Assembly: GCA_029821495.1 (NCBI GenBank)
Contig: JALGTG010000023.1
Span: forward strand, 1-36,327
Length of the DNA stretch: 36,327 nt
Direction: 5' to 3'
Source: Candidatus Hebobacteria bacterium
GTDB taxonomy: Bacteria; Armatimonadota; Hebobacteria; Hebobacterales; Hebobacteraceae
Position numbers and translations under genes: made by a program. Each line of letters starts with the position of its first letter. Position 1 is the stretch's first letter. Below, piece after piece: positions 8,292-35,356 of this stretch. The notes below the pieces were generated by a model that did not search any database, had not been told where the DNA came from, and saw only the letters and a list, made by a program, of their open reading frames with translations.

Positions 8292-8295
8292 GCTA

Positions 8296-8823: not shown

Positions 8824-8843
8824 TGGCGTGGGCTTCCGGGCAA

Positions 8844-9209: not shown

Positions 9210-9215
9210 GGCGAG

Positions 9216-11699: not shown

Positions 11700-12318
11700 T
11701 CAGTGCCGCGCTCTTGACGGCCCGCAGAAGGCGTGGCAGCGACTCGACGGTAGGGAGCAGGATCATGCGGCCCGTTAGATCCATCTCGGGGCCGCCAAAC
11801 TGGACTTCGATCAGGAGGATTTCGGACCCGGCCTCGTGCATGGGCAGGACTGCAGTGGTGAGGATGCCCGCCGCCATGTCCACTGCCACGCCTGGCGGCG
11901 ACGGCGCAAGCGCGAGCCCGGTCGTCGCCTCGATGGCTCCCAAGTAGGAGGAGGCGAGGATGTTGCCCGCCTCGGCCAGGGCCGATGTTTCCATCTCGCC
12001 AAACTCCTCGTCCAGAGAGCACTCCGTGCCCGTCAGAGTCGCTATCAGTGTCAGCGCGTCCTGGATGAGGAAGGTAGCGATGTACTGTCCGCGCACGTCG
12101 CCACTGACCTCCAAGATGATCCCGGCTATCATCTCCTCGGGATCGCCGAACAAGGCCGGCACCTCTTCCAGGGGGAGTATCTTCACCTTTGCGTAGGAGT
12201 TCACAAGCGGCTTCCCCGCCAGCGCACTCAGAGAGGCGGTTGCTTGCATCGCCCCCATGCTGCCGATGCGCTGCAGCAGGTTCAGCGGGTGCTCCTCAAC
12301 CTCGACGCTCTTAGACAT
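11692..12318 (-). CDS. cheC: CheY-P phosphatase CheC
   Basis: This 208-residue protein is a CheC family member. The second active-site motif is intact: Glu116-x-x-Asn119 in LAEAGNILASS. In the first motif (LQRIGSMGAMQATASL) the usual Glu and Asn are replaced by Arg17 and Ser20, so this protein probably has one working site. CheC dephosphorylates CheY-P and binds CheD, whose gene follows with an 8-base overlap. The frame reaches 12336, but I chose the ATG at 12318, which overlaps the cheA stop by 8 bases (ATGTCTAA), exactly like the cheC/cheD junction. A GGGAG lies about 11 bases upstream. Confidence 0.92.
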   Translation of the reverse strand: MSKSVEVEEHPLNLLQRIGSMGAMQATASLSALAGKPLVNSYAKVKILPLEEVPALFGDPEEMIAGIILEVSGDVRGQYIATFLIQDALTLIATLTGTECSLDEEFGEMETSALAEAGNILASSYLGAIEATTGLALAPSPPGVAVDMAAGILTTAVLPMHEAGSEILLIEVQFGGPEMDLTGRMILLPTVESLPRLLRAVKSAALNG

Positions 12319-14386
12319 CGCTCTCATTTCTCCCATTGAACTGGTGCCGCCCGCCCGATCGCTCTCCCTCGTCCTCTGCCAGAAGACTTGCCTGCAGACC
12401 GGCGCGATCCATCAGGCTCGCGACATCCAGCACTAACGCCACCGTCCCGTCTCCTAGAATGGTCGAGCCCGACAGCCCAGCGATATCGCCCAGCGCCGAC
12501 CCGAGTGACTTGAGCACGATATCCTGCTCCCCGACCAGATGGTCAACAATCATCCCGACCTCTCGCTCGCCACTCCTCGTCACGACGATACGACTCAGGC
12601 CGCCGCTCATCTGGATGCCCGTGTCATCGCCGTCGAGCGCCTTCCGCAGGTCCACCACGGGAAGCACTCGCCCGCGGAACGTCGTCACCAAGCGTCTCCG
12701 GACGCTCCCCAGCGCATCCCGGGCAACGCGCGTCGTCTCCACCACATACACCAGCGGGATCGCAATCGTCTCCTCCCCGCACCTCACCAACAGCGCCTGC
12801 GATATGGCCAGAGTCAAAGGCAGCCTGACCACCATCGTCGTCCCGACGCCCGGCTTCGACTGGATCTGCACCCTCCCCCGGAGCCGCTGCACATTGGTCT
12901 TCACGACATCCATGCCCACACCGCGGCCCGACACTTCGCTTACAGACTTGGAGGTTGACAGGCCAGAGGAGAAGACCAACTGCAGCGCCTCCTCATCAGA
13001 GATGCTGGCGGCCGCGCTCTCCGACATGCCGCCCTTCCTGACGGCCGAGTCTTTCAGCTTCTCTGCGTCGATGCCGGCCCCGTCATCGGTGACCTCGATG
13101 ATGATGTGGTTCTCCTCCTGGCGTGCCGCCAGAATGACCCTTCCCTTTGGTGGTTTTCCCGCCCGGGCCCTCTGCTCCGGCGTCTCCACGCCGTGGTCAA
13201 CGGCGTTGCGGAGCAGGTGCCCAAGAGGATCCACCATCTCCTGGATCACGGAGCGGTCGAGCTCCGTCTCTTCCCCCTCCAGAATGAACTCCACCTCCTT
13301 GCCCATCTTGTGTGCCAGGTCCCTCACCATCCTCGGGAAGCGCCGGAATAGCTGCGCGATGGGCAGCATCCTGGCCTTCATCACCTCTTCTTGCAGATCA
13401 CCCACCGTGCGACCCATCTGCCGACACGTCTCCCGCACGTCCTGTATCGAATCCACGCTTCCGTACTGCGTCTCCAGGTCCAGCCCGAGCTGGGCCAGCC
13501 GCGTGCGGTCGATTACCAGCTCACCTACCAGGTTCATCAGCTTGTCGAGGCGCGCAACGTTCACGCGCACCGTCTGCTCGGCCCCCTTCGCCATGGCGCC
13601 CAACTCGACCGATGACTTCCCCCTCCCCTTAGGGCCCACGTCCACAACTCGCTCGTCCCCACTCACCTCCACCCGAGCGATCTCTGAGATGGACTCGAGT
13701 GCCCCCCGAATCGCCTGCTCTCTCACCCTCGCCGCCATCATTATCCGGAGCTGTTCGCCGATGCGGCCCGCGCTGATCTCTTCCCGCGAGGGGTGCGTCC
13801 TCAGAATCTCGCCAATCTTCTCCAGCGCTTTCAGTACAATCTGCGCCCGCACCGATGGCATCGCGCAGTCGTCAGTAAGCCGTACGACCACCTCCCGCGC
13901 GTCCGTCTCCATCAAGCGCTCTTCGTCTTCATCACCGTCGCGACCGTCAGGGGGCGGGGCACTGCTGTCTCCAGTCGGTCCGGCATCTCCCGTCCCGGCC
14001 GCCGAGGCTTCCAGCGCGGCCACCACCTCCGAGATATCGAGGGCATCGCTCTCCCCGCCGCGGATCGCCTCCTTTATTGTCTTGAGCGCGTCCACCGCCC
14101 TCAGCAGGACGTCTACCACCTCCGTGTTCGGGCGCATGTCCCCGGCGCGGAACCGGTCCAGGATGTTCTCGCTCGCGTGGCAGAGCCGCGACATGTTGGC
14201 GAAGCCCATTGCGGCGGAGGAGCTCTTCAGAGAGTGGGCCGCGCGGAAGATCTCCTGGAGCAGGCCTTGGTCGTCTGGTTCCTTCTCCAGCCGAAGGATG
14301 CCATCGTCCAGGGTCTCGACCTGCTCCTCGGCCTCATCCAGAAAGACGCCCAGGTACTCTGACATATCCGGCGCGTCGGCTGCCAC
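12311..14386 (-). CDS. cheA: Chemotaxis histidine kinase CheA
   Basis: The 691-residue kinase has all five CheA domains. HPt: RAAHSLKSSSAAMGF with phospho-acceptor His51. P2 (CheY/CheB docking): about residues 160-230. P3 dimerization helices: about 265-330. P4 kinase: LLRNAVDHG (N box), DDGAGID (G1) and GRGVGMDVV (G2). P5 CheW-like domain: about 535-670. It autophosphorylates in response to receptor signals and passes phosphate to CheY and CheB. The start is a GTG at 14386 with GAGG upstream; the ATG at 14365 is an alternative. It follows the receptor gene after a strong hairpin and overlaps cheC by 8 bases. Confidence 0.96.
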   Translation of the reverse strand: MAADAPDMSEYLGVFLDEAEEQVETLDDGILRLEKEPDDQGLLQEIFRAAHSLKSSSAAMGFANMSRLCHASENILDRFRAGDMRPNTEVVDVLLRAVDALKTIKEAIRGGESDALDISEVVAALEASAAGTGDAGPTGDSSAPPPDGRDGDEDEERLMETDAREVVVRLTDDCAMPSVRAQIVLKALEKIGEILRTHPSREEISAGRIGEQLRIMMAARVREQAIRGALESISEIARVEVSGDERVVDVGPKGRGKSSVELGAMAKGAEQTVRVNVARLDKLMNLVGELVIDRTRLAQLGLDLETQYGSVDSIQDVRETCRQMGRTVGDLQEEVMKARMLPIAQLFRRFPRMVRDLAHKMGKEVEFILEGEETELDRSVIQEMVDPLGHLLRNAVDHGVETPEQRARAGKPPKGRVILAARQEENHIIIEVTDDGAGIDAEKLKDSAVRKGGMSESAAASISDEEALQLVFSSGLSTSKSVSEVSGRGVGMDVVKTNVQRLRGRVQIQSKPGVGTTMVVRLPLTLAISQALLVRCGEETIAIPLVYVVETTRVARDALGSVRRRLVTTFRGRVLPVVDLRKALDGDDTGIQMSGGLSRIVVTRSGEREVGMIVDHLVGEQDIVLKSLGSALGDIAGLSGSTILGDGTVALVLDVASLMDRAGLQASLLAEDEGERSGGRHQFNGRNESDV

Positions 14387-14437
14387 TTACACACCATCCT
14401 CTGGGAAGGAGATCGCTTGCTCAATCTCACATCAGGG

Positions 14438-14479
14438 GCGCCGGGGAGGAAGGCCGCGGGGGCCTTCCTCGTCCGGCGC
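14438..14479 (-). terminator. Strong bipartite hairpin between receptor gene and cheA
   Basis: A 7-bp outer stem (GCGCCGG/CCGGCGC) and a 10-bp inner stem (GAGGAAGGCC/GGCCTTCCTC) enclose the 5-base loop GCGGG. It lies in the 151-base gap after the receptor stop and before the cheA start. No T-run follows, so it may be an attenuating or mRNA-stabilising hairpin that gives the receptor and cheA different expression levels. Confidence 0.6.
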
Positions 14480-14537
14480 ACTGATCACCCTACACTCAAG
14501 CTGCACCCTTGAGTGTGCTGCAGGGCGGGGTCTCGCA

Positions 14538-16310
14538 CTAGGCCGCCGTGGCCCGAGCCGGCTCCTGCTCTGCCTCGGTCCCGGTGCTTGCCTTGCCGTT
14601 GTCGGTCTTGAACTGGCTCACCAAGTCCTGCAGGTCCGCGGCCAGCGAGGACATCTGCTGGGCAGAGGCCGACATCTCCTCCACGGACGCATTCTGCTCT
14701 TGCGCCGCAGCGGAGACCTCCTGGGCAGCAGCCGCATTCTCTTCGCTGATGGCGCTGATCTGCTCCACGGCCTTCGTGACCTCGCCGGAGTTGGCCGACA
14801 TCTGCTCGGCCGCGGCCGTGCTCTCCTCGGTGACGGCTGAGATGTTCTCGACCGACTTCACGACTTCCGCGGCTCCGGCGGCCATCTGCTGGGCGGCGGC
14901 GGACACATCCTGAGCCTGACCAACGACCCCGTCCACTGCCGTCATGATCTCCTCCAGCGACTTCCCGGCCTGCTGGGAGAACTGGGTGCCCTGCTCCACT
15001 TCTTTGGCCACCTGCTCCATCGAGGCGACGGCCTCGTCAACCCCGCTCTGGATGCCCTTGATAAGGTTGCCGATCTCCTTGGTGGCATTGGCAGAGCGCT
15101 CCGCCAACTTGCGCACCTCATCGGCCACCACCGCGAAGCCCTTGCCGTGCTCGCCGGCCCGGGCCGCCTCGATGGCGGCATTCAGCGCGAGCAGGTTCGT
15201 CTGCTCCGCGATGTCCGTGATCATCTCCACGATCTCACCAATCTGCTTCGAGCTCTCTCCGAGTGCTCGCACATTGGCGCCTGACTGCTCCGAGGCATCG
15301 GCGATTTTGCCCATGCCCTCGACGGTGCTCTGCACCACCTCTCCGCCGGCCTTCGCCGTCTCCGCCACGCGACCCGCGCCCTCGGCGGCGGCCTGGGAGT
15401 TCTTGGAGACCTGCTCGATCGCCTGGGAGATCTCATTCATCTGCTTGTTAGCGTCTTGCGCGGTCTCAGCCTGACTCTGCGCGCCTTTCGCCACCTCTTC
15501 CACCGCCCCGTTGAGCTGCTCCATTGACTTTGCTGTAGTGGTGACGGTCTCGGTCTGCTCGTTGGCTCCCTTGGCCACCTGCTGGATGGTCTCGGCGATC
15601 TGCCCGCTGGCCTTTCCGGTGTCCTCGGCCGCCTTCGCCACTTGGCCGCTGCTCTCGGCCACCTGCTGGCTGCTGTTCGCCGCCGCCACCATGGCCTGCT
15701 CCAGTGCCTCCGTGGCCGTGTTCAAAGCGTCCTTGAGCTTCTCATAGTCGCCCTTGTAGTCACCCACGACGCGCACCGTCAGGTCTCGCTGGGACAACCG
15801 ATCGAGGGCTGCACCAACCTCCCGCAGCGGCGTCACGATGCCCTCCATGGTCCGGTTCACGGCCGCCACGATCTCCGCGAGGTCACCCTTGAACCGGCCG
15901 GCATCGCCCCGGTAGTCGAGATTCCCCTCGGCCGCCGCCTGAGCCAGCTTGTCCATCTCCTGGCCCAACACGTTGATCTGCTCGCCCAGGGCGTTGACGG
16001 CGACCTTCACGTTGTAATCGCCCTTGTAGTCAGCCGCCACCTGGGCCTTGGAGTCGCCGGCCGACAGACGGTCGAGTACGCCCCCGATGTCGCGCAGCGG
16101 CGTCACGATGCCCTCCATGGTCCGGTTCACACCCGCCAGGATCTCCCCGAAGTTGCCCTGGAACCGGCCGGCATCGCCCCGGTAGTCGAGATTCCCCTCG
16201 GCCGCCGCCTGAGCCAGCTTGTCCATCTCCTCGCCAAGGCCGTTCATCACCTCGATGAGGAGGTTGAGGTTGTTCTTGATCTCGTTGAAGTCACCCTTGT
16301 ACTCAGACAC
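14538..16310 (-). CDS. Soluble methyl-accepting chemotaxis protein with tandem HAMP-like repeats
   Basis: This 590-residue protein lacks transmembrane segments. Residues 1-200 hold two near-identical 90-residue units (DKLAQAAAEGNLDYRGDAGR, then VNRTMEGIVTPLR), a HAMP-like linker array. Residues about 200-575 form the coiled-coil signalling domain, with the conserved tip EIVEMITDIAEQTNLLALNA and IEAARAGEHGKGFAVVADEV. The GTG at 16310 overlaps the stop of the PAS gene by 8 bases (GTGTCTGA). As I recall the family, receptors with this N-terminus (EYKGDFNEIKNNLN) normally carry a PAS domain upstream in the same chain, joined by about 30 residues that are missing here. It probably forms a cytoplasmic cluster with CheA and CheW. 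The C-terminus ends in a short Ala-rich tail. Confidence 0.93.
   Translation of the reverse strand: MSEYKGDFNEIKNNLNLLIEVMNGLGEEMDKLAQAAAEGNLDYRGDAGRFQGNFGEILAGVNRTMEGIVTPLRDIGGVLDRLSAGDSKAQVAADYKGDYNVKVAVNALGEQINVLGQEMDKLAQAAAEGNLDYRGDAGRFKGDLAEIVAAVNRTMEGIVTPLREVGAALDRLSQRDLTVRVVGDYKGDYEKLKDALNTATEALEQAMVAAANSSQQVAESSGQVAKAAEDTGKASGQIAETIQQVAKGANEQTETVTTTAKSMEQLNGAVEEVAKGAQSQAETAQDANKQMNEISQAIEQVSKNSQAAAEGAGRVAETAKAGGEVVQSTVEGMGKIADASEQSGANVRALGESSKQIGEIVEMITDIAEQTNLLALNAAIEAARAGEHGKGFAVVADEVRKLAERSANATKEIGNLIKGIQSGVDEAVASMEQVAKEVEQGTQFSQQAGKSLEEIMTAVDGVVGQAQDVSAAAQQMAAGAAEVVKSVENISAVTEESTAAAEQMSANSGEVTKAVEQISAISEENAAAAQEVSAAAQEQNASVEEMSASAQQMSSLAADLQDLVSQFKTDNGKASTGTEAEQEPARATAA
15823..16231 (-). 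repeat. 270-bp-period duplication inside the receptor gene
   Basis: The 71 bases at 15891-15961 are identical to 16161-16231, and the 38 bases at 15823-15860 are identical to 16093-16130, both with a spacing of 270 bases. Bases between the identical blocks have diverged. The two copies encode the two 90-residue HAMP-like units, so this is an in-frame tandem duplication or a repeat kept uniform by gene conversion. Confidence 0.9.
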
Positions 16311-16839
16311 CCTGGACGATCCTTTGGTAATTCCCCTCGAACTTGTCCACGTCGGCCCGCGCGGCGAGCTTGCCTTCGACGGCGGCCTGCACTAGATCAC
16401 CGAGCTCTGTCGTGACCTCCATCTCCTTGCTGATGTCAACTACGTACTCGAGACCTCCGATGACGTTGCCATCGGCGTCCTTCAGAGGCAACCCCGTGCA
16501 CCGAATCGGCAGCTCACCCGAGGGCAGCTTTGCCACCGTGTCGTCGGTGAAGATGCTGTTCTGCTGCATCGCCTTCGCCACCTGACAGTCGGCCGTGTTG
16601 CAGTGCGCGGTGTTGAAGAGGCTAGAGCACTTCTGCCCCACACACGCCTCCGGCGTCCTGCCCACCGCCGCGGCCCCGGCATCGTTCATGTAGATGACGT
16701 TGAATTCCCGGTCCACCGCCATCACCGGGGTGGGGACATTGCCGAGTATCTCCTCACAACTCACTTCGCTCCCGGATTGTCCCGCCTTCGCGGCCGCTGT
16801 CTTCACGGCCGCGGCCTTCTTGGTCCTCGTCGTTGCCAT
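16303..16839 (-). CDS. PAS-domain sensor protein, apparent N-terminal half of a split chemoreceptor
   Basis: The 178-residue protein starts with a Lys/Ala-rich stretch (1-25). A PAS domain (about 28-140) follows: ILGNVPTPVMAVDREFNVIY, then Cys66, Cys71, His79, Cys80 and Cys85, ending in GGLEYVVDISKEME. The Cys/His cluster (KCSSLFNTAHCNTADC) recurs in PAS-containing receptors and may bind a metal or haem; this is inferred. The last 35 residues (LAARADVDKFEGNYQRIVQG) match the linker that in related receptors continues into the HAMP-like region. Here it stops, and the receptor gene begins in another frame 8 bases earlier. The ATG at 16839 has a good AGGAG upstream. It probably supplies the sensing part to the receptor encoded next. 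Confidence 0.88.
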   Translation of the reverse strand: MATTRTKKAAAVKTAAAKAGQSGSEVSCEEILGNVPTPVMAVDREFNVIYMNDAGAAAVGRTPEACVGQKCSSLFNTAHCNTADCQVAKAMQQNSIFTDDTVAKLPSGELPIRCTGLPLKDADGNVIGGLEYVVDISKEMEVTTELGDLVQAAVEGKLAARADVDKFEGNYQRIVQGV

Positions 16840-16915
16840 GTCCGTCGTCTCCTCTTGCCAATCGAGATTGTTGTATCATCGAGCGTGTTGCAGGACTCCA
16901 ACACGGCTCGGCCCG

Positions 16916-17512
16916 CTACACGCGCTGAAACACCTGGCCATCTCCTACCACCCGATGGAACCAGGGCGTTGACTCCGGAGGCATCTTCTGTGTCTGCTCT
17001 GTAACGAAGAACCCGCCCTCGTCCAGCACGCTGTGAAACATCTTCAGCACGGCCACTACCTGCTCGCGCGTTAGATGGAGAAGCACGTTCTTGCAGAGGA
17101 TAAGGCATAGCCCCTCGCGGATCGGCTGCAGTGAGGTAAGATCGTGGTGTTGGAAGGACACTGCTTGCTTGAGGGGCTCTGCAATCATGTAGTGGTCGGG
17201 CTCCTCTGCCGGCACGAAGTACTTGTCCAGTAGTGCGCGCGGTATTCGCCTCACCTCCTCCTCCCGGTACAGCCCGCGGCTGATGATCGCCCCGAAGCTG
17301 GGGTTAATGTCGGTGGCGTGGATCTGCAGATTCCGAAAGAGGAACTCGCCCATGTTCTCGCGGAAGATGATGGCCAGCGAGTAGGGCTCGGCGCCGGTGG
17401 CGCAGCCTGCATCCCACACACTGAGGTATCTCCGGCTCTTGAGCTCCGGTATGACGTGTTGCTCGATCAAGCGCAGTGTGTACATGTCCCTGAAGAAGTA
17501 GGTAAACGCCAT
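16916..17512 (-). CDS. CheR-type methyltransferase lacking the N-terminal domain
   Basis: This 198-residue protein contains only the catalytic part of CheR. MAFTYFFRDMYTLRLIEQHV corresponds to the T-x-FFRD start of the SAM domain. VWDAGCATGAEPYSLAI is SAM motif I, HATDIN follows, and LCLILCKNVLLHL is the conserved CRNVLIYF segment. The helical N-domain of about 70 residues is absent. The upstream frame meets a TGA with no ATG, GTG or TTG before the ATG at 17512, so this is not a start-site artefact. It lies between cheW and the PAS gene; a full-length CheR is encoded at 9216-10031. It may serve the local receptor, or be a decaying copy; its catalytic motifs look intact. Confidence 0.88.
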   Translation of the reverse strand: MAFTYFFRDMYTLRLIEQHVIPELKSRRYLSVWDAGCATGAEPYSLAIIFRENMGEFLFRNLQIHATDINPSFGAIISRGLYREEEVRRIPRALLDKYFVPAEEPDHYMIAEPLKQAVSFQHHDLTSLQPIREGLCLILCKNVLLHLTREQVVAVLKMFHSVLDEGGFFVTEQTQKMPPESTPWFHRVVGDGQVFQRV

Positions 17513-24062: not shown

Positions 24063-26006
24063 ATGGCCGAGGCGATCTTCTCTCGGGCTGAGAAAGCAGT
24101 CAGCGGCAGGTCCAAGGCTCTGGTCTTGGCCGTTGTGATCGGCGCTCTCCTGACTGTGATGGGGGCGCCGGCCGCGGGCCGCTCGGACACTGCGGACCGG
24201 CTGGAGGACACGCGGCCGCTGCCGAGCCGTTGGATGTCGCAAGACGGCCTGCCTAGACCGCGCCACGTTCCCCCGCGCTACCGAGGTCCCTTTGCCGTCA
24301 CCAAGGTCACCCGCAGGCCGCCCGACCTGTCGGCCGCGGCGTCACAATTGGCACCGAGCAAGCGCGTCTGCCTCATTGTATCGGACGGCGTGTATGACGA
24401 GATCGCAGCACACCTCGACGTCTATCAGCACGACCTCGAGACTGACGGATATGAGGTAGTCTCCTATCGCCTCGAATCGGGATCGGCGGAGTCGGTGCGG
24501 GAGTTCCTGCGACAGCTATACGAAGAGCCTGAGTCTCTGGTGGGAGCGGTGCTGATCGGCGATGTCCCCTACGTCATCTACGAGATGATGCAGAGATTCA
24601 GCCCACAGGAGCCGGTGTGGTACGAGGACTTCCCGTGTGACCTCTACTTCATGGATCTGGACGGCGTCTGGGGGGATGTGCTCGAGGACGTCAGCGTCCA
24701 CGCGGGCAACGGGAAGTATGACACCCATACCGGAGATGTCGGGCTGGAGGTCTGGGTCTCCCGCCTGACGGCGGGCAATCTCCCGGAGTTGGGCACTGAG
24801 CCCGAACTCCTGCGCAACTACTTCCAGAAGAACCACGCCTACAGCACCGACGGCATGCCGGTGGAGACGCGCGCCCTCATGTACTTGGATGACGGGTGGG
24901 CCGATATGAGCGCTGCGGATGAGGCCGCCGCCGCTGCCGTCTACGGCTCAGACGCGACGGAAGCGGTGGACGATCCGGAGATGACGACGCGAGACGACTA
25001 CCTGAGCCGAATCGCCTACCAGGGCCATGAACTCGTCCACACACGCTCGCACGGATACGCGCAGGCCCACACGTACGTTCGCGCCAACGGCCGGATCCAC
25101 GAGTGGGTGTGGGCGGCTGACTACGCGCTGTATGATCCGCGGGCGCTGTTCTACTCCTTCTTCGTATGCGGCGCAGCCGACTACACCATGGAGGGCCACC
25201 TGGCCGGGACGGCTGTGTTCAACCGCTCGTGGGGGCTTTTCGCCTGGGGATCGACGAAGACGGGCGGGCTGTGGCAGGACTGGGCTTTCTACGAATCCCT
25301 GGCGGCCGGCCACTGCTTCGGCGACGCGTTCCTGACATGGTACAGCGACGTGCAGGGCCGCCAGCCGTCGTTGGCGCCACTGTGGTGGTACGGGATGGCG
25401 CTGACCGGGGATGCGACGCTGAGCCGGCGGCTGTTCCGCGATGTGGGACGAGCGCACTGGGCGCAGCGCGAGATTGCGGCGTGCGTGGGGGCCGATATTG
25501 TCAGCGGATACCAAGACGATACCTACCAGCCGGCCCTGTCCGTGTCCCGCGACCAGATGGCCGTCTACATCGCGCGCGCGCTGGCCGGCGGAGACGAGCA
25601 TGTGCCCCCGGGGCCATCGGAGCCGAGCTTCGCGGACGTCGCGGTCGAGGATTGGGCCTACAGATACATCGAGTACGCGGTCGCCAATGATATCGTGCGC
25701 GGCTACGCCGACCAGCACTACCACCCCGACCTGACCGTGGACAGAGGCCAGATGGCGGTCTTCGTCGCCCGGAGCATCGCCACTCCGGTGGGCGAGGCCG
25801 GGCTGGCGGACTATGTGCCACCTGACCCGCCGACCTTCGAGGACGTGACCGGAGGCAACGAGTGGTCCTGGTGCCACAAGCACGTGGAGTACCTCGCCGA
25901 GGCCGGGGTGATCGGCGGGTATCCGGATGGCCGCTACCATCCGCACTGCTCCTGCTCGCGCGACCAGATGGCCGTTTACATCGCCCGCGCCTTCCAACTC
26001 CAATGA
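24063..26006 (+). CDS. C25 (gingipain-like) cysteine peptidase with three SLH domains
   Basis: The 647-residue protein begins with a hydrophobic segment at residues 18-38 (ALVLAVVIGALLTVMGAPAA), a likely signal peptide. Residues 95-440 resemble C25-type peptidases of the caspase-like fold: RVCLIVSDGVYDEI, LIGDVPYVIYEMM, then PCDLYFMDLDGVWGD. His330 in HTRSHG and Cys369 in FFVCGAADYT are candidates for the catalytic dyad. Three SLH domains follow, starting near residues 459, 523 and 592, each ending in the QMAV(Y/F)(I/V)AR pattern. They should anchor the enzyme to the cell wall or S-layer. The 31 bases at 25969-25999 near the 3' end are identical to 29267-29297 in the next gene, showing shared origin of the SLH modules. 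The ATG at 24063 has only a weak ribosome-binding site. Confidence 0.85.
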   Translation: MAEAIFSRAEKAVSGRSKALVLAVVIGALLTVMGAPAAGRSDTADRLEDTRPLPSRWMSQDGLPRPRHVPPRYRGPFAVTKVTRRPPDLSAAASQLAPSKRVCLIVSDGVYDEIAAHLDVYQHDLETDGYEVVSYRLESGSAESVREFLRQLYEEPESLVGAVLIGDVPYVIYEMMQRFSPQEPVWYEDFPCDLYFMDLDGVWGDVLEDVSVHAGNGKYDTHTGDVGLEVWVSRLTAGNLPELGTEPELLRNYFQKNHAYSTDGMPVETRALMYLDDGWADMSAADEAAAAAVYGSDATEAVDDPEMTTRDDYLSRIAYQGHELVHTRSHGYAQAHTYVRANGRIHEWVWAADYALYDPRALFYSFFVCGAADYTMEGHLAGTAVFNRSWGLFAWGSTKTGGLWQDWAFYESLAAGHCFGDAFLTWYSDVQGRQPSLAPLWWYGMALTGDATLSRRLFRDVGRAHWAQREIAACVGADIVSGYQDDTYQPALSVSRDQMAVYIARALAGGDEHVPPGPSEPSFADVAVEDWAYRYIEYAVANDIVRGYADQHYHPDLTVDRGQMAVFVARSIATPVGEAGLADYVPPDPPTFEDVTGGNEWSWCHKHVEYLAEAGVIGGYPDGRYHPHCSCSRDQMAVYIARAFQLQ

Positions 26007-26055
26007 CGGGCGGCACTGGTCTGGCGCGGAGAGCGGACTGTGGAGGGCTGAGCAC

Positions 26056-29000
26056 ATGTGCGCGCGTCGCCTGACTCTCTGCCTCGTCGGGGTCATGTTG
26101 GCTGTGGCTCAGAGCGCGTTGGCAGAAGAGGTCGCCGTGGCCTGGCAAAGCGATGCCCGGCAGGCCCATTGGGTGGCCGTCAACACCTCAGACGACTCCT
26201 GTTGGGTGAGCTACACCGCCTCCTCCGGTTGGGGGGAGGTGGTTCACCTGGCCGAAGACGGTGGGGTCCTCGCACGTGCCAACGGCTTCGGCTACAGCTT
26301 AACCGGTGGCTGCATCTCTGTGAACCCGACGGACGGCTCTTGCTGGATCGGCGGCTGCTACGAGGTGGCACACGTGGCCGAGGACGGAACCGAAGTCTGG
26401 CGCGGCTACTCCGCGGCCGGAGCGCATTCTCTATCTACGAACTTGTCTGACGGCTCCTGCTGGATCGGTGGCTGCTACGAGGTCGTTCACCTGGCCGAGG
26501 ACGGCACGGAACTGCTTCGAGTTGAGATGAAGACGCGGTGGGACCCTGGGCATTACCGAGATGTCTCAGTGGACCAGATCGATGGGTCGTGCTGGGTGGT
26601 GGACACGGTGAACAAGGAGGTGTTGCGCCTGGCCGAGGATGGCGCGGAGCTGTGGCGAGGAGGAGGCCTGGCCGAGCCCGCACGGCTCTCCGCCAATCCG
26701 GCGGATGGCTCGTGCTGGGTAGTGGACACCTCGAATGGTGAGGTGCTGCACCTGGCAAGGGACGGCACGGAGCTGTGGCGAGGAGGCGGCTTCAGCTCAC
26801 CCACGGCCGTCTCGGTGAACGCGGCGGATGGATCCTGCTGGCTGGGCGACAGCGACCGCGGCGAGCTTGTGCATCTGACGGAGGACGGCACGGAGCTGCT
26901 TCGAGTTGGGGATTTCGGCCGGGTCACCTGTGTTTCCGCCAATCCCAATGATGGCTCCTGCTGGGCGGTCGCTATGGACGGCTGGGAACTGGTGCATGTG
27001 GCCGAAGACGGCGCCGTACTATGGCGCCTAGGGAGTCTTGGAGGACCCGTGTCTTTGTCCGTGAACCCGGGGGATGCCTCATGCTGGGTGGCGGACGGCA
27101 GGTCTGACACGACCACACACCTGAGCGAGGAGGGGGAGATGCTGTGGCGGGGCGGAGACTTCGACGGCCCGTCGCGTGTCTCCACCAACTCGGCCGACGG
27201 GTCGTGCTGGGTGGCCGACGCCGAGGCCGGCGAGGTGATTCACCTGGCCGAGGATGGCACCGAAGTGTGGCGCGGTGGCGTGTTGAGTACTGACATCAAG
27301 CACCCAGCACAGCTCATCTCGGTCAATTCGACCGATGGCTCCTGCTGGATTGCCAACGCCGAGGGCAATGAGGTGCTCCACGTCGGCCCCCATGGCGAGG
27401 ACCTGGGCCGAAGGGGGAGTGGCAGCCTCTTCAACAGGCCCTCTTCAGTCTCGGTCGATTCCGCGGATGGCTCGTGCTGGGTGGCGGACCGCGCGGACGA
27501 TCAGGTCGTGCACCTGGGGGCGAGCGGAGCTGAGCTGTGGCAAGGGGGAGGCTTCCACTACCCCGCGGCCGTCTCCGCCAACCCCACAGACAGCTCGTGC
27601 TGGGTGGCTGATGAAGGCAACAATGAGGTCGTCCACCTGGCCGAGGACGGGGCGGAGCTGTGGCGAGGCGGTGGCTTCTTCGGGCCCCGGTCCGTGTCTG
27701 TGAATCCGGGAGACGGCTCCTGTTGGGTGGCGGATACACGCAACCATGAGGTGGCGCGCCTCGCCGCCGATGGCACGGAGTCAGCGCGCGCAAGCGGGTT
27801 CTGCTATCCGGGAGGCGTCTGCGCCAACCCGATTGACGGCTCGTGCTGGGTGGCCGATAGCGCGCGCGGGCAGGTGGTCCATCTCAGTGAAGACGGCGCG
27901 GAGCTGTGGCGGGGGGGCGCGTTCAGCTACCCGGCGGCGGTAGCCGTGAATGCTGCAGATGGCTCCTGCTGGGTGGCGGACTGCGGCAACGGACAGGTGG
28001 CCCATCTGAGCGAGGACGGTGTCGAGCTCTGGCGGGGAGGGGGCTTCGGCAGTCCCGTCGCCATTTCAGTAGTCCCGGCGGATGGGTCCTGCTGGCTGAC
28101 AGACGCGGCGGCTAACCAGGTCGTGCATTTGGCTGAGGACGGCGCGGAGCTGTGGCGGGGAGAGGGGTTCGGGCGGCCGTCGTCTGTCTCCGCGAATCCC
28201 ACCGACAGGTCGTGCTGGGTGGCCGACACCGAGCACGATAAGGTCGTTCACCTGAGCGAAGACGGCGCAGAGCTGTGGGTCAACAGCGACGGGTTATATG
28301 GTCCCTGCTCCGTGTCCGCCAACCCGACGGATGGTTCCTGCTGGGTGGCTGACGAGGGGAGCCAAGAGGTCGTCCATCTCAGCGAGGACTGCGGAGTGCT
28401 GTGGCGCGGCGGAGAGTTCGAGGAACCGCGGTGGCTCTCCGTCAACCCGTCCGACGGCTCCTGCTGGGTGGCCGACACCGAGGCCGACGAGGTGATTCAC
28501 CTGGCCGAGGACGGAACGGAGCTGTGGCGGGGAGGCGGCTTCCGGGTGCTCGCGTCTGTGTCGGTGAACTCGGCCGACGGCTCCTGCTGGGTGGCCGATA
28601 GAGGGAAGGACCAGGTAATCCACCTCAGTGAAGATGGCATGGTGCTGTGGCGGGGCGAGGACTTCGACGACCCAGTCTGTGTCGCCGTCAATCCAACGGA
28701 TGGCTCCTGCTGGGTGGCGGACAGACACCGGGTAACGCACTTGGTCATCGTGCGCTTCCCCGATGTCAGTGTGGACCACTGGGCCTTCGACGAAGTGACT
28801 CGCTGCGCTTGTCTGGGGATTGTGGGCGGCTACCCCGATGGGCTCTATCGTCCCGGGCTGCCGGTGAGCCGCGACCAGATGGCCGTTTACATCGCGCGCG
28901 CTCTCGTAGGCGGCGAGCGCGCTCCGCCAAGGCCGGACACCACCACCTTCCTCGACGTGCCAAGGAACCACTGGGCATTCAGGCATGTCGAGTACTGCGT

Positions 29001-29304
29001 AGCACACGGCATAGTCCGGGGCTTCTCGGCGGCACTCTATCGCCCCGCCCAGGTGGTGAACCGCGGCCAGGCGGCAGTCTTCATCGCCCGCGCGGTGGCC
29101 GGAGGCGAGGCCGGTCTTCCGAACGGGCCGTCTGAGGCCACTTTCGACGATGTGCCCGTCGGCCACTGGGCCTACAAGCACGTGGAGTACTGCGTGGCGC
29201 AAGACATCGCAGAGGGCTACGACGCGACCACGTATGCGCCCGCGGTCGCGGTCACCCGCGACCAGGTGGCCGTTTACATCGCCCGCGCCTTCCAACTGCC
29301 GTGA
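26056..29304 (+). CDS. Exported 21-repeat propeller-like surface protein with three SLH domains
   Basis: The 1082-residue protein has a clear signal peptide (residues 1-23, ending AQSALA). Residues about 36-897 consist of 21 tandem repeats of about 41 residues with consensus VNPTDGSCWVAD, then EVVHLAEDG, then ELWRGGGF. The spacing of short beta strands resembles NHL/WD40-type beta-propeller blades. A Ser-Cys-Trp triplet is present in every repeat. Three SLH domains begin at Phe901, Phe965 and Phe1030. The frame is open further upstream, but the ATG at 26056 has GGAGGG at good distance and starts the signal peptide. It follows the C25/SLH gene by 49 bases, so the two are probably co-transcribed. 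A binding or structural role on the cell surface is likely; the ligand is unknown. Confidence 0.9.
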   Translation: MCARRLTLCLVGVMLAVAQSALAEEVAVAWQSDARQAHWVAVNTSDDSCWVSYTASSGWGEVVHLAEDGGVLARANGFGYSLTGGCISVNPTDGSCWIGGCYEVAHVAEDGTEVWRGYSAAGAHSLSTNLSDGSCWIGGCYEVVHLAEDGTELLRVEMKTRWDPGHYRDVSVDQIDGSCWVVDTVNKEVLRLAEDGAELWRGGGLAEPARLSANPADGSCWVVDTSNGEVLHLARDGTELWRGGGFSSPTAVSVNAADGSCWLGDSDRGELVHLTEDGTELLRVGDFGRVTCVSANPNDGSCWAVAMDGWELVHVAEDGAVLWRLGSLGGPVSLSVNPGDASCWVADGRSDTTTHLSEEGEMLWRGGDFDGPSRVSTNSADGSCWVADAEAGEVIHLAEDGTEVWRGGVLSTDIKHPAQLISVNSTDGSCWIANAEGNEVLHVGPHGEDLGRRGSGSLFNRPSSVSVDSADGSCWVADRADDQVVHLGASGAELWQGGGFHYPAAVSANPTDSSCWVADEGNNEVVHLAEDGAELWRGGGFFGPRSVSVNPGDGSCWVADTRNHEVARLAADGTESARASGFCYPGGVCANPIDGSCWVADSARGQVVHLSEDGAELWRGGAFSYPAAVAVNAADGSCWVADCGNGQVAHLSEDGVELWRGGGFGSPVAISVVPADGSCWLTDAAANQVVHLAEDGAELWRGEGFGRPSSVSANPTDRSCWVADTEHDKVVHLSEDGAELWVNSDGLYGPCSVSANPTDGSCWVADEGSQEVVHLSEDCGVLWRGGEFEEPRWLSVNPSDGSCWVADTEADEVIHLAEDGTELWRGGGFRVLASVSVNSADGSCWVADRGKDQVIHLSEDGMVLWRGEDFDDPVCVAVNPTDGSCWVADRHRVTHLVIVRFPDVSVDHWAFDEVTRCACLGIVGGYPDGLYRPGLPVSRDQMAVYIARALVGGERAPPRPDTTTFLDVPRNHWAFRHVEYCVAHGIVRGFSAALYRPAQVVNRGQAAVFIARAVAGGEAGLPNGPSEATFDDVPVGHWAYKHVEYCVAQDIAEGYDATTYAPAVAVTRDQVAVYIARAFQLP
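26170..28745 (+). repeat. 21 tandem repeats of about 123 bp
   Basis: Coding repeats of the surface protein, average unit about 41 codons, each containing an SCW-encoding core. Repeats 4-20 are most regular; the first three and the one at about 27240-27430 have small insertions or deletions. Confidence 0.9.
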
Positions 29305-29470: not shown

Positions 29471-30235
29471 ATGAAAGGCGTTATCCTTGCGGGCGGTCTC
29501 GGCACTCGTCTCTACCCCCTCACCAAGGCTACCAATAAGCACTTGCTTCCGGTCTACGACCAGTGCATGATCCATTACCCTATCGCGAACCTGCTCGGGG
29601 CGGGGATAGACCAGATCCTCGTTGTCACCGGGGGCCCGCACGCGGGGGACTTCATCCGCGTGCTGGGCACAGGCAAAGACCTGGGTGTGAAGCACCTCGA
29701 GTATGGCTATCAGGAGGGCGAGGGCGGAATAGCGGAGGCGCTGGAAGTGGCGGAGGATTTCGCGGAGGGGCAGTCTGTGTTCGTAGTGCTCGGGGACAAC
29801 TTCACAGACGCCGATCTGGGGCCGGCTGCTCGTGGGTTCAAGGAGGGAGCACATCTCTTCCTGAAGGAGGTGCCTGACCCGCGAGATTATGGGGTGGCCG
29901 TTTTCGACGAGAGCGATACCTCTCGGATCGTCGCCATTGAGGAGAAGCCGAAAGCGCCCAAGAGCAAGTACGCGGTGACAGGGTTCTACATCTACGACAG
30001 CCGGGCGTTCGACTACATTCGGCGATCGGAGCCTTCGGCGCGCGGCGAGCTAGAGATAACGACGGTCAACAACTTCTACATCGCCGACGGCCTTATGACC
30101 TGGAGCAAGCTCGACGGGCTGTGGCTCGACTGCGGCTCCTTCGACAGCCTGTTCGAGGCAAACCGGATTGTGGCGGAGACGCGCCAGGGCGGGGACGCGA
30201 GGTTCTCGCAGCGGCCGCCTACCGATCCGGCTTGA
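29471..30235 (+). CDS. Sugar-1-phosphate nucleotidylyltransferase, RmlA/RfbA-like
   Basis: The 254-residue protein matches glucose-1-phosphate thymidylyltransferases. LAGGLGTRLYPLTKATNKHL is the nucleotide-binding and catalytic segment, followed by LLPVYDQCMIHYPI. VVLGDNF holds the metal-binding Asp, and IEEKPKAPKSKYAVTGFYIY and GELEITTVNNFYI are typical of the family. It should make dTDP-glucose or a similar activated sugar. The match QEGEGGIAEAL deviates slightly from the usual Q-x-x-P-x-GLAQA loop. The ATG at 29471 has an excellent AGGAGG seven bases upstream. No other rhamnose-pathway gene is nearby, so it stands alone after two surface-protein genes; a role in glycosylating surface material is inferred. 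It converges with the pilin gene at 30340. Confidence 0.9.
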   Translation: MKGVILAGGLGTRLYPLTKATNKHLLPVYDQCMIHYPIANLLGAGIDQILVVTGGPHAGDFIRVLGTGKDLGVKHLEYGYQEGEGGIAEALEVAEDFAEGQSVFVVLGDNFTDADLGPAARGFKEGAHLFLKEVPDPRDYGVAVFDESDTSRIVAIEEKPKAPKSKYAVTGFYIYDSRAFDYIRRSEPSARGELEITTVNNFYIADGLMTWSKLDGLWLDCGSFDSLFEANRIVAETRQGGDARFSQRPPTDPA

Positions 30236-30339: not shown

Positions 30340-31428
30340 TCAGAAGAGCACAGGCGCGTTCGGGTTGTCGCCCACATAGCCGCACCAGGAGTAGGGAGCG
30401 GGGGGCTCCGTGAGCCCCATGAGGCTGTGGGCGTCGCCCATCTTGGCAAGCAGCCTCTCCGAGTTCCACCACGCAGCGTGGCCGTCGAGGAAGCCGAGGT
30501 TGACGCCGCCCATGTGGCGGGTATATGGCTTGCGAAGAGTGGGGTCTGTGATGAACGCGGGAGGCGCCCACACCAGCACCGGGTCGCATCCCTCCTCGCC
30601 GGCCCACACCACGCAGTTATCCCAGTCCCACCAGTAGCCCCAATCGGGGTTGGCGTCGCAGACTGCGCAGTCGAGCGCGCAGATGTCCGGGTAGGCGGTG
30701 TTGCCGGGGGCCATGTAGCCCCCCTCCGGACCGCAGTCCCCACAGATGATGAAGTTGACCGGATCGTCCACCTCCACGAGCTTCAGCTCTCGCTGCTCGT
30801 TGAAGCCGATGCTGAACCTGAAGGTCTTGGCTCCACCCGCGGCTTCGTCGGCGGTCCACCAGCTCATGCGGCCCTGCAACAGGCTGTCGGTGATCGAGCC
30901 GCCCCATCCGGCCGGATAGGTAACGGACGGGCACAGACCCGAGCCGGATCTGTGGGGGGAGTGGCCCCACACTCCCTCGCCGGCCTGCAGATGGCCGAGC
31001 CAGTCGGGGAACCCGAAGATGAAGCCGGCGACGCCCTCCAGCTTGGCGCTCGGGCAGTTCCACACGTCCCGATTCTTGATGTACTCGTCGACGACGACGG
31101 GCCAGCGGAGGTAGGGGTTGGCCCCGGTGCCCATCTCGCACTCGCCGGGCTCCACCCCCTCCTCTCCCATGCCCCCGCCCGGGCCGGTCTGGAAGTAGTC
31201 CCATACCTCCTGTCTGTGCTCGCTGGGAGGTAACGTGTCGTTGTTGTCCGTCATGTACATCTGAATGGCCAGGGCGATGTTCTTCACGTTCGACAGACAC
31301 ACCGTCTTGCGCGCGGACTCGCGCGCCCTTGCGAAGACCGGAAACACCATTGCTGCCAGGATCCCGATGATCGCGATCACCACCAGCAGCTCGATCAGGG
31401 TGAATCCTCTACGACGCCATCTCATCAT
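30340..31428 (-). CDS. Type IV pilin-like/pseudopilin protein with H-X9-DG motif, copy 1
   Basis: The 362-residue protein starts with a prepilin leader, RRRG then [18 protein letters not shown]. Cleavage is expected after Gly8, leaving Phe at +1 and Glu at +5. The C-terminal region has His305 followed by nine residues and Asp315-Gly316 ([17 protein letters not shown]), the H-X9-DG signature. Such proteins occur in large paralogous sets in Planctomycetota and related phyla. The middle is rich in Trp and Cys (ICGDCG, DICALDCAVC), more than in ordinary pilins. GGAGG lies about ten bases before the ATG at 31428. The closest relative is the neighbour at 33926-35029; both share YLRW, KNRDVW and CPSAKLEG blocks and end in P-x-LF. 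A role in a surface appendage or secretion pseudopilus is inferred. Confidence 0.9.
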   Translation of the reverse strand: MMRWRRRGFTLIELLVVIAIIGILAAMVFPVFARARESARKTVCLSNVKNIALAIQMYMTDNNDTLPPSEHRQEVWDYFQTGPGGGMGEEGVEPGECEMGTGANPYLRWPVVVDEYIKNRDVWNCPSAKLEGVAGFIFGFPDWLGHLQAGEGVWGHSPHRSGSGLCPSVTYPAGWGGSITDSLLQGRMSWWTADEAAGGAKTFRFSIGFNEQRELKLVEVDDPVNFIICGDCGPEGGYMAPGNTAYPDICALDCAVCDANPDWGYWWDWDNCVVWAGEEGCDPVLVWAPPAFITDPTLRKPYTRHMGGVNLGFLDGHAAWWNSERLLAKMGDAHSLMGLTEPPAPYSWCGYVGDNPNAPVLF

Positions 31429-31771: not shown

Positions 31772-33769
31772 CTACACATGTCCGCGGGTGATCAACCCAA
31801 TGACGTTCCAGATCGAGCTGTTGAGCAGATCCCCCACGATCAGGCCGATGGCGAGTGGGATCGTCTTGCGGTAGAGGCGAAGGCCGCCGTAGCGGGTGAC
31901 CAGGACCTTGAGGACCCACGCCAGCAGGAAGGGAAAGGTGCCCATGGCCTGGGAGAGGCTGTTGGAGAACAGATAGCCGATGGGGTGGAACGGCCACCAC
32001 ACGAAGCGCAGCCGCATGATCCCGAGGAAGACGGTCACCACGCCGCCCGCGACGATGTAGAGCACCGCACCCACGTCCCGGTCCTCCCCGCCCGTGATGT
32101 CGTACCACATAGCCCAGCCGTCCTCCAGAAGCGCCCAGGAGACGAAGTAGTCGCCCTTTGCCGCCGAGGTCATCAAGAAGCCCTGGTGATACATCGCGGT
32201 CAGCATCACGAACATGCCGAGGGCGAGCGCGACGGCGAAGGTGCCGAGCAGCACGTATGTGAGTCGCCGCAGATTGGTGCCACTTGCGTCCGCGATCTTG
32301 AACGCGCCGAGGGTGTTGAGCGAGCAGGCGCTGAAGATCCTGCTGGGAAGCGGCGCCCCGGCCCAGTTCATCGTGTAGAGGGTCAGCGTTTCCTGAGGCA
32401 GCAGATTCCGCATGCCCACGCTCATCGCCGCCATGTCGTTGAACCACCAGAAGAAGGGATCGAGAGCCCCCTCTGCCTGGAGGCGGGCATAGGCCAAGTA
32501 TAGTCCGACGAGGAGAGCGACGTAGGCTATCCCGAAGATGGGCCGGCAGCCCGAAAGGATCAAGAACGCGACGAGCCAGACGAGGGAGACCGCGAGGCCG
32601 AGGAGGGCCCACCGATAGGGCAGGGGTTCATCGCGATCCCCTCCCGAGGGGCGGCTGAAGGCGATGCGCAGGGCCCGCGCGAGATGTCTCCGCGCAGTCC
32701 ACAGCGCCCACAGCGACAGGGCCACGAGCGCCCCGGTAGCCTGGTTGGTGGGGGCAGGGAACTCCCACCTCCACCACTCCTCGGCCGAGCCGGGATCCGC
32801 CCCGTACATGACCGCCACAGCGCACAACCCGATCCGCACCAGCCAGAAGAACCACACGGAGAACGAGAGCTCCGCCGGGATGATGTACGCGAGGGAGATC
32901 AACCACGGGTAGAGCCATATATCGACTTGACCTAAGGCGGACAGCGGTCCCACGTACTGCGCGCTCATGACAGTGTACTGTAGGGGAAGCGAGGGCATAG
33001 CGGGCAGTCTCTGTGAGAGCTGGCTCGCGAAGCCCACGCCGGTGGCGACAATCAGTCCTGCCCAGAAGGCCTTGCTGACTGGCAGGCGCGCGGCTCTTCC
33101 TCCGTTGGGCACTTCGCCGACGGCTTCGAGAGGGATCTGCGCCAGGGGAAAGGTCAACCGCTCGTGCCTGATCCACTGCTGCTGCACGAGGACGAGGAGA
33201 CAGACATTGGCGAGAAAGAGGGCCACCATGAAGGACCCCCAGGCGGCCAGCGGCAGGGCCCACTCCGACCATGGGACGGCAGCTCCCCCCCAGAAGTAGC
33301 CTTCGACGGCGGAGACCGAAGAGGGACCCCACCAGGTGGGGATGAGATTGATGAAGGCCGATCCCCACATCGGCTGGGCGCGGGCCATGTGGTAGAAGCA
33401 CGGAGCCTTGGAGAGCACATAGAAGAGGACGTGGATGCCGAAGAGAGGGGTGACGACGAGGACGACCGAGTAGACCGTCAGCAGCTCTGGCCGGGTGAGC
33501 CGCAGTCGCCGAAACACCGGAATGCTCGTGAGCGCCGTCAGCAGGAAGAGGACGGTCAGCGGCCAGGGCGCCGGAACGCCGCTGGACCAGAAGATGTTCC
33601 AGTTCCGGGATGCGAACACGACCTCGCCGTAGAAGATGGCCGGTGCGGTGACGGCGACGATCACCATCGACAGCGCCACCGCGCGCCAGGTGACGCCGCC
33701 GCGCCGCGGCGCCGGTCTGGAACCGGTCGTGGACATCTCCTCTGTCGAGTCGGAGGAGTGTTCCCTCAT
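31772..33769 (-). CDS. Polytopic membrane protein, DUF6785/DUF6784-like, second copy
   Basis: The protein of about 665 residues has many hydrophobic segments. Its C-terminal blocks match the first copy (4747-6720): LRFVWWPFHPIGYLFSNSLS, YGGLRLYRKTIPLAIGLIVG, then D and a short Trp-containing tail. The middle carries two charged cytoplasmic loops (QQWIRHERLTFPLAQIP and RRHLARAL). WIRHERLTFPLAQIPLE corresponds to WADEEKLAFPITILPVQ of copy 1, so the similarity extends through the protein. The start is uncertain: GTG 33790, ATG 33769 and ATG 33736 are all in frame, and the last has AGAGGAG directly adjacent. It is bracketed by the two pilin-like genes on the same strand. Transport of a large substrate is suggested by the architecture only. 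Confidence 0.83.
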   Translation of the reverse strand: MREHSSDSTEEMSTTGSRPAPRRGGVTWRAVALSMVIVAVTAPAIFYGEVVFASRNWNIFWSSGVPAPWPLTVLFLLTALTSIPVFRRLRLTRPELLTVYSVVLVVTPLFGIHVLFYVLSKAPCFYHMARAQPMWGSAFINLIPTWWGPSSVSAVEGYFWGGAAVPWSEWALPLAAWGSFMVALFLANVCLLVLVQQQWIRHERLTFPLAQIPLEAVGEVPNGGRAARLPVSKAFWAGLIVATGVGFASQLSQRLPAMPSLPLQYTVMSAQYVGPLSALGQVDIWLYPWLISLAYIIPAELSFSVWFFWLVRIGLCAVAVMYGADPGSAEEWWRWEFPAPTNQATGALVALSLWALWTARRHLARALRIAFSRPSGGDRDEPLPYRWALLGLAVSLVWLVAFLILSGCRPIFGIAYVALLVGLYLAYARLQAEGALDPFFWWFNDMAAMSVGMRNLLPQETLTLYTMNWAGAPLPSRIFSACSLNTLGAFKIADASGTNLRRLTYVLLGTFAVALALGMFVMLTAMYHQGFLMTSAAKGDYFVSWALLEDGWAMWYDITGGEDRDVGAVLYIVAGGVVTVFLGIMRLRFVWWPFHPIGYLFSNSLSQAMGTFPFLLAWVLKVLVTRYGGLRLYRKTIPLAIGLIVGDLLNSSIWNVIGLITRGHV

Positions 33770-33863
33770 TGGTGGATGCCCGCCTCGCACCCGGCATTAC
33801 CCCGCGGCCTCGCCTTCCTCCTGCAATACTCCGTCGGCGAACGGCCGAGGCCTCGTTCGCGAA

Positions 33864-33925: not shown

Positions 33926-35029
33926 CTAGAACAGCATTGGCGTGTCGGCCGGCCAACTTCCGGAATCGCACTGGCAGCCCACACCTGGAATCCGAGAGGG
34001 GCCATCCATGTAGAGTCCCAGGGGTTTGGTGTCACCTTCCCTGGCCAGCTCGGCGTACTCGGCGATCAGCCTCTCTGAGTGCCACCAGGCGGCATGTCCG
34101 TCCAGAAAGCCCAGGTTCACGCCGCCCAGGTGCCGCGAGTAAGGGTTACGCAGGGTTGGGTCACGCAGAAACGCGCCATTGTTGGGCGCGTACAGGTCCT
34201 TGCACTCCCCCGCATACTCCGCGCACAGCTCCCAGTCCATCCAATCGCACCAGTTGTACAGCCCCGAGCAGGCTAGCTGGCAGATCTCCGGATAGGCCGC
34301 CAGCGCGATGTTCATGTAGTCGTGGTTCGCCTTCCAGCTCCCATCGCCGCAGATCACGAAGCTGACGGGATCGTCCACTTCCACAAGCTTCATGCCCCAG
34401 TTGGAGACGCCGACATCCATGTTGCCAGCGTTGAGGGCGATGCTCTGACGGAAGACCTTCTCTCGCTCCACCTGCGCTTCGGCGCCCCAGGCAGGGCCCT
34501 GCAAGAACGAGTCGGTGACTACCCCGCCCCAGCCCGGGGGCCACCAGCCGTTGAATACGCACAAACCCTCGCCCCACTCGTCGTGCCAGGCCGGCGTCCA
34601 GATGTCCGTGCGCATCATCGGCTCATTGGCGACAAGGACACTGAACCAGTCTCCTCCGGGGTTGATGTTGCCCGCGCCGCCCTCCAGCTTCGCGCTCGGG
34701 CACCGCCACACATCGCGGTTCTTCACGTACTCGTCGAGGATCAGAGTCCACCGAAGATACGGGTTAGCATAGGTGGCGCCCTCCACACAGGTCATGAAGT
34801 CGACGACTTCCGACCGGTGCTCGGTAGCAGGCAACGTGTCGTTGTTGTCCGCCAGGTACATCTGAACGGCCAGGGCGATGTTCTTCACATTCGACAGACA
34901 CACCGCCTTGCGCGCCGACTCGCGCGCCCTCGCAAAGACCGGAAACACCATCGCTGCCAGGATGCCGATAATGGCAATCACCACCAGCAGCTCGATCAGG
35001 GTGAAGCCTCGCCTTCTGGTACTCATCAT
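33926..35029 (-). CDS. Type IV pilin-like/pseudopilin protein with H-X9-DG motif, copy 2
   Basis: The 367-residue protein has the prepilin leader RRRG then [18 protein letters not shown] (cleavage after Gly8, Glu at +5), and His300 followed by nine residues and Asp310-Gly311 ([17 protein letters not shown]). It is a paralogue of the protein at 30340-31428. The first 50 residues are almost identical; [36 protein letters not shown] and [17 protein letters not shown] are shared with small changes. The frame extends to 35083, but ATG 35029 has GAGGAGGAG seven bases upstream and gives the normal short leader. It is rich in Trp and Cys ([29 protein letters not shown]), which may form disulphides outside the cell. 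Confidence 0.9.
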
Positions 35030-35356
35030 CCTGCTCCTCCTCTGAATCGACGGCTCCTCGACATTCACACCTAGAATGCTCATATCACCAACTCAGCAGG
35101 ACACTCAGCAGACCACGGCGTGGCAAGCGGCCTCGCGCCAACTCTCAGCTTCCTTGACCTCCTCTCCGGCGCTGTCCAGCGGACTCCGTCCATCACCTCC
35201 CTTCACGTGTCTAGACTGCCGTCGCTCGGTTGTTACGCAGGCTCGGTTCGCTCCCGCCGGGCCATGTCCTTCTCGCCGAGGGAAGGAGAGAGAGTCGTTT
35301 CTGTGCAATAGGCCGTCTCAGGCGATGGACCAGAAACTGATGCCCGGGGAGCGACG
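35030..35356. promoter_or_regulatory. Divergent intergenic region with a 12-bp-period direct repeat
   Basis: These 327 bases separate the pilin-like gene and the plus-strand ADP-ribosylglycohydrolase gene. The 9-base word ACTCAGCAG occurs at 35091-35099 and again at 35103-35111, close to where the pilin promoter should be, and could be a regulator site. No credible gene and no clear promoter hexamers are seen. Confidence 0.4.

Follow-up and report, generated by a model that had tools for sequence, protein, structure and literature searches.

Highly repetitive tandem propellers, whose blade counts peak at 7 and 14, have already been described, most of them of the WD40 type, and arrays of this kind usually originate by amplification of one blade (PMC9218822, PMC6805158). 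They include the WRAP-type tandem propellers, such as the 14-blade protein Npun_R6612 of Nostoc (PMC6805158, PMC9218822). Related blade sequence patterns are found in the six-bladed sensor domain of PknD (PDB 1rwi/1rwl) and in virginiamycin B lyase (Vgb lyase; PDB 2z2o, 2qc5), a seven-bladed, single-ring enzyme. SLH-anchored surface proteins (PF00395) with three C-terminal SLH domains are also known.

Here we analysed a stretch of 36,327 nucleotides of a Candidatus Hebobacteria genome (contig JALGTG010000023.1, hereafter the window), which codes for an array of 21 blades with an invariant Ser-Cys-Trp (SCW) motif. Most likely, this is a secreted, SLH-anchored protein composed of three tandem seven-bladed propellers of the NHL/Vgb type, in which the strand-b Cys is probably a buried free thiol. 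It has its blade sequence pattern in common with PknD, but with Cys-Trp instead of Val-Tyr, blades of ~41 residues, probably seven per ring, a tandem arrangement and SLH anchors. The likeness to Vgb lyase is one of fold and sequence pattern alone and carries no enzymatic claim. As with the WRAP proteins, blade counts peak at 7 and 14, and the WRAP closure by a permuted N-terminal strand resembles the closure that we propose below. Nevertheless, the WRAP arrays are WD40-type and very recently amplified, whereas the present array is NHL/Vgb-type and older, with a fixed Cys-Trp pair. Three C-terminal SLH domains are present as in other SLH-anchored surface proteins, the exported part being here a putative triple propeller.

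Gene and protein architecture

Exactly 21 SCW tripeptides are encoded in the ORF at 25927-29304 (+), their codons spanning 26197-28713 (+). They are 41 residues apart in 14 of the 20 intervals and 39-47 residues apart in the remaining ones. From the sequence, the likely start codon is the ATG at 26056, which opens a predicted signal peptide (MCARRLTLCLVGVMLAVAQSALA, 26056-26124 (+)) with a cleavage site between ALA and EE, read by eye. Most relatives have the same signal peptide, followed by an EEVxExWR mature start. An in-frame ATG further upstream at 25927 (1125 aa) is a less likely start, as it would place 43 residues ahead of the signal sequence and make the gene overlap with the preceding one.

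Based on the ORF and the Pfam matches, the whole gene is thus 26056-29304 (+), a natural unit that includes the signal peptide and the C-terminal SLH region. Its 1082-residue product consists of the signal peptide, 21 NHL/Vgb-type blades and three SLH domains that represent a cell-envelope anchor (28753-29298 (+); PF00395, 4.6e-28 in three stretches). SLH domains are encoded in at least 15 other places of the same genome. About a dozen additional Cys residues are scattered through the chain outside the SCW motifs. The preliminary description, which had reported 21 units of about 41 residues with SCW between 26170 and 28745 in an exported protein, was therefore accurate as to the number of units, their positions and, with the signal peptide and the SLH domains, export.

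No Rfam match was found within the window. A sugar nucleotidyltransferase gene lies just downstream of the array gene (29471-30235 (+); NTP_transferase, 7.4e-52), and a link with surface glycosylation is possible. Further away, ORFs that by reading are CheB-, CheR-, CheA- and MCP-like form a chemotaxis cluster at 7296-17512 (-), and two type IV pilin-like proteins of the DUF1559 type (30340-31428 (-) and 33926-35083 (-)) flank a DUF6785/DUF6784 membrane protein (31772-33790).

Relationship to known propeller families

The protein matches the Pfam families Vgb_lyase (PF24684; 3.6e-21, 75.7 bits for a cut-off of 50) and NHL (PF01436; 4.9e-15, 55.1 bits for a cut-off of 20), in agreement with the NHL-type blades first suspected from the repeats. 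Among PDB sequences, the NHL propeller of PknD matches best (4.9e-11 over 191 residues); its GTVYVTD aligns with DGSCWVAD, with Val opposite Cys. With a profile of seven-blade segments, the designed NHL propellers were matched at ~1e-35 and PknD at 6.5e-23. The hydrophobic and aromatic pair of strand b that is typical of NHL/Vgb blades (V/I/L-Y/W) is present, with Cys occupying the V/I/L position. This weakens the initial impression that 21 evenly spaced Cys residues are striking, since they occupy an ordinary hydrophobic strand-b position common to NHL proteins.

An exact literature search for DGSCWVAD returned no paper. Within a known propeller family, the array represents a branch not yet described, characterized by NHL/Vgb-type blades, a fixed Cys-Trp pair, SLH anchors and lineage-specific expansion. 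Phage records contained no match to it and plasmid records only generic PknD-like NHL or SMP-30-like matches; nothing therefore points to an origin from mobile elements or viruses.

How many blades form a ring

We ran a profile of the repeat over all fetched ORFs and read doubtful arrays manually. Complete arrays of the lineage have 21 (n=2), 14 (n=12), 7 (n=12) or 15 repeats (n=3), with single cases of 13, 8 and 4. Multiples of seven account for 26 of the ~32 complete arrays, a count that includes orthologous pairs, so that not all cases are independent. The homologues in other phyla are mostly single propellers, mostly with seven repeats.

The AlphaFold2 model of repeats 8-14 (295 residues) is a confident propeller (pLDDT 93.7, pTM 0.92) with 28 strands, i.e. 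7x4, in the order d,(abcd)x6,abc; the segment was cut between strands c and d by choice, and its good closure supports, but does not prove, that this partition is the natural one. In Foldseek searches, the best match of this model was the seven-bladed v13WRAP-T (TM 0.87/0.90, rmsd 2.2 A), followed by YncE (0.85) and Vgb lyase (0.80-0.82), with scores of 0.80-0.86 over these two, while TM scores to the six-bladed NHL and Pizza6 propellers were only 0.60-0.68. The full-length model retains the strand rhythm, with low confidence in the arrangement of the 21 blades (pLDDT 78.6, pTM 0.43). The mature N-terminus opens with an orphan strand d (EEVAVAW), which is also found in most relatives (EEVIEVWRSPFG), and the final repeat stops at strand c, directly followed by the SLH region.

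Based on the clustering of the lineage counts at 7, 14 and 21 and on the confident closure of a seven-repeat segment, the 21 blades are best read as, and most likely form, three tandem seven-bladed propellers, in line with the early suggestion of three or more propellers. In such an arrangement, strand d would be handed from one propeller to the next along the chain. Propeller 1 would be closed by the orphan N-terminal strand d, propeller 2 by the one that follows blade 7, and so on, which would let the 41-residue rhythm run on without linkers. With the boundaries set by this hand-over model, the proposed propeller 1 comprises the orphan strand d and repeats 1-7 (26128-27009 (+)), the proposed propeller 2 corresponds to repeats 8-14, the segment modelled above (27010-27894 (+)), and the proposed propeller 3 to repeats 15-21 (27895-28758 (+)), the last of which has strands a, b and c without strand d.

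It is unlikely that the blades partition differently, for instance as 6+7+8, or that the protein is an architectural component of the S-layer rather than a ligand binder. The SLH anchoring and the ambiguous full-length model would fit such readings, arrays with numbers of repeats other than multiples of seven do exist, and a 15-blade WD40 array has been modelled as 7+8 (PMC9218822). Nevertheless, both the distribution of the lineage counts and the very confident closed model of the seven-repeat cut, with its best TM scores to seven-bladed structures, argue against another ring partition.

The related arrays L013, L041 and L046 have 15 SCW-type repeats, which suggests a 7+8 pair of rings. L040 has only four repeats before its SLH region and might be an oligomerising half-ring or the product of an assembly collapse.

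The strand-b cysteine

In the model of the segment, strand b of each blade begins with the Cys. Among 388 repeats of the lineage, its column contains C (337), V (25), L (7), A (7), I (4), Y, G and W (2 each) and S and F (1 each), with no charged residue, and the adjacent Trp is kept in 383. Between orthologues, the only exchanges at Cys positions involve V and L. The number of Cys residues per protein is odd in some cases and even in others. In the homologues from other phyla, the blades of one protein differ at this position, some having C and others V, I, L or F; the share of Cys is inflated in that sample, which was chosen with an SCW-containing pattern. In ordinary NHL proteins of the phylum, the position is occupied by L, V or I, mostly followed by Tyr.

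Profile searches for DsbA, DsbB and VKOR gave no match in the genome of the window, a 91% complete MAG in which such genes may have been missed, while the control genomes were positive; DsbA and VKOR were absent or below threshold in the sampled genomes of the same family. In a small sample of SLH proteins without SCW arrays, Cys represents 0.6-2.4% of the residues, so that exported proteins show no avoidance of Cys here. The relatives inhabit anoxic sediment (PMC10290634).

The replacements by V, L, A and I, the occurrence of both odd and even numbers of Cys, the failure to find Dsb or VKOR proteins and the anoxic habitat lead us to propose that the invariant Cys is probably a buried free thiol that fills a hydrophobic slot in the fold. 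Of the three fates initially envisaged for these residues, the evidence thus favours burial, while metal binding and disulfide formation fit poorly. The thiol would be packed between neighbouring blades, where Val, Ile or Leu is usual. Cys may have become fixed through the amplification of a Cys-bearing blade in this lineage, and packing constraints would then retain it in an anaerobe with no recognisable disulfide-forming system.

Disulfides between adjacent blades or propellers might rigidify an exported surface protein whose Cys residues are invariant, at 21 of 21 positions, in both the gene and its orthologue. However, we consider such cross-links very improbable, as no DsbA, DsbB or VKOR was found in the genome and single replacements by V, L, A, I or F yield odd as well as even numbers of Cys. 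From general fold geometry, the strand-b neighbours of a seven-bladed ring would also be too far apart: the equivalent residues of adjacent blades should be roughly 9-11 A from each other, beyond the reach of a disulfide.

The SCW motif is conserved at 21 of 21 positions while its codons differ, with 19 TGC and two TGT for Cys, and TCC, TCG, TCT or TCA for Ser, in line with the invariance reported in the preliminary description. Mean amino-acid identity among the 14 exact 41-mers is 54%. When residues are identical between repeats, the same codon is used in 51% of cases, versus 45% expected from the codon usage of the array, which indicates that the repeats are old, with nearly saturated silent sites. 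In a different genus (genome G007, locus L061, 4495-7857), we identified an orthologous SCW array, likewise of 21 repeats. The repeats of the two arrays correspond position by position, with a diagonal score of 118.7 versus a maximum of 117.3 in 20,000 permutations. SCW is present 21 times out of 21 in both, whereas only 62% of the four-fold sites are identical and only 13 of 21 repeats retain the next Val.

Since all 21 motifs persist in a syntenic orthologous array despite diverged silent sites, the sequences indicate that SCW conservation is selected. There is accordingly little room, and a very low probability, for a Cys kept invariant merely by recent amplification or homogenisation. Arrays do usually arise from one blade (PMC9218822, PMC6805158), and the excess of shared codons (0.51 vs 0.45), albeit slight, goes in this direction. 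Nevertheless, the position-by-position match across two genera and the retention of every SCW despite diverged silent sites largely refute this reading.

The seven-fold regular placement and the near-invariant Cys-Trp pair could evoke a Cys ring that binds a metal or a cluster in each propeller, or reactive or modified Cys residues, linked for example to the adjacent Trp, but this is extremely unlikely, as the axial channel of propellers is lined by strand a and not strand b, homologues of other phyla keep Cys in some blades only, with V, I, L or F elsewhere, which a metal ring would forbid, and adjacent strand residues face opposite ways, making a Cys-Trp link unlikely.

A role of the thiol beyond packing in an SLH-displayed repertoire of multi-propeller proteins, such as sulfide or redox sensing or Cys-dependent assembly, appears improbable. 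Position-specific use of Cys is conserved in other proteins: four tandem paralogous single-propeller genes (L099, 2699-7691) have Cys in blades 5 and 6 only (xxxxCCF), a pattern also found in L094 and L101.

Distribution of SCW arrays

We scanned 84,980 species genomes with the patterns D[GS]SCWV[AV]D and ELWRGGGF and found at least 48 loci, to which relaxed motifs would add more. Most loci are in two Hebobacteria genomes, with 15-20 proteins each. The others belong to further Armatimonadota, Omnitrophota, Zixibacteria, Coatesbacteria, Latescibacterota, BRC1, Desulfobacterales, Delongbacteria, Wallbacteria, Poribacteria, Eisenbacteria and Verrucomicrobia. Among 291 Armatimonadota genomes, only G000, G001, G005 and G007 have at least three GxCW[VIM]AD sites (9, 3, 44 and 76, respectively). 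Two sites each were found in G008, which belongs to the same order, and in two unrelated genomes. Thus, SCW arrays are concentrated in one order of Armatimonadota (Hebobacteria) and thinly spread in other phyla.

Other domain arrangements were found as well. A BRC1 protein of 3263 residues (L085, 391-10179) has PKD-like repeats between its two seven-blade SCW propellers. In another protein (L054, 3260-6739), seven blades with mixed SCW and V are fused to many cadherin-like domains (Big_9, Cadherin_4), with no SLH domain.

Neighbouring peptidase and possible function

The gene that ends 49 bp upstream of the array gene (24063-26006 (+)) codes for a protein with a C25-like, gingipain-type peptidase domain (PF01364; 2e-9, 37.6 bits for a cut-off of 23) and three SLH domains (4e-31). 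It harbours a putative His-Cys dyad, with SHG near residue 329 and VCGA near residue 368. SLH-anchored C25-like peptidases were found in three of the 15 genomes searched, including that of the window. In two of these three, the latter and G007, the gene immediately precedes the 21-repeat array. In the third, G005, the contig (L069) breaks off after the first two repeats of an array that lies downstream of the peptidase gene, and the pair is probably also kept.

In propellers, the b-c and d-a loops share one face, the usual ligand face of the fold. In the repeats, loop length is at its mode in 99.2% of a-b and 99.4% of c-d loops, but in 60.9% of b-c and 77.6% of d-a loops. As nearly all length variation is in the b-c and d-a loops, recognition by one face is suggested. 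We considered whether this top face evolves fast, but its loops are not less conserved between orthologues (identities of 0.74 for b-c and 0.72 for d-a) than the opposite ones (0.76 for a-b and 0.68 for c-d), and thus they give no indication that a ligand has driven diversifying selection. As a tentative proposal, the candidate ligand face formed by the d-a and b-c loops might capture a peptide or glycan at the cell surface together with the C25-like peptidase, so that the two proteins would jointly bind and cleave protein there.

Significance

The reading of these arrays as tandem seven-bladed propellers with buried thiols accounts for a hitherto undescribed family of surface proteins, with up to ~20 members per genome, in sediment bacteria that are abundant but uncultured. 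It also provides a natural series of propellers with one, two or three rings, all made of the same type of blade, which is useful for testing both the amplification of propellers and the passing of strands between rings. Finally, with the fixed Cys, one can test in a simple way how tightly selection acts on the packing of blade cores, in a lineage with no recognisable disulfide machinery.
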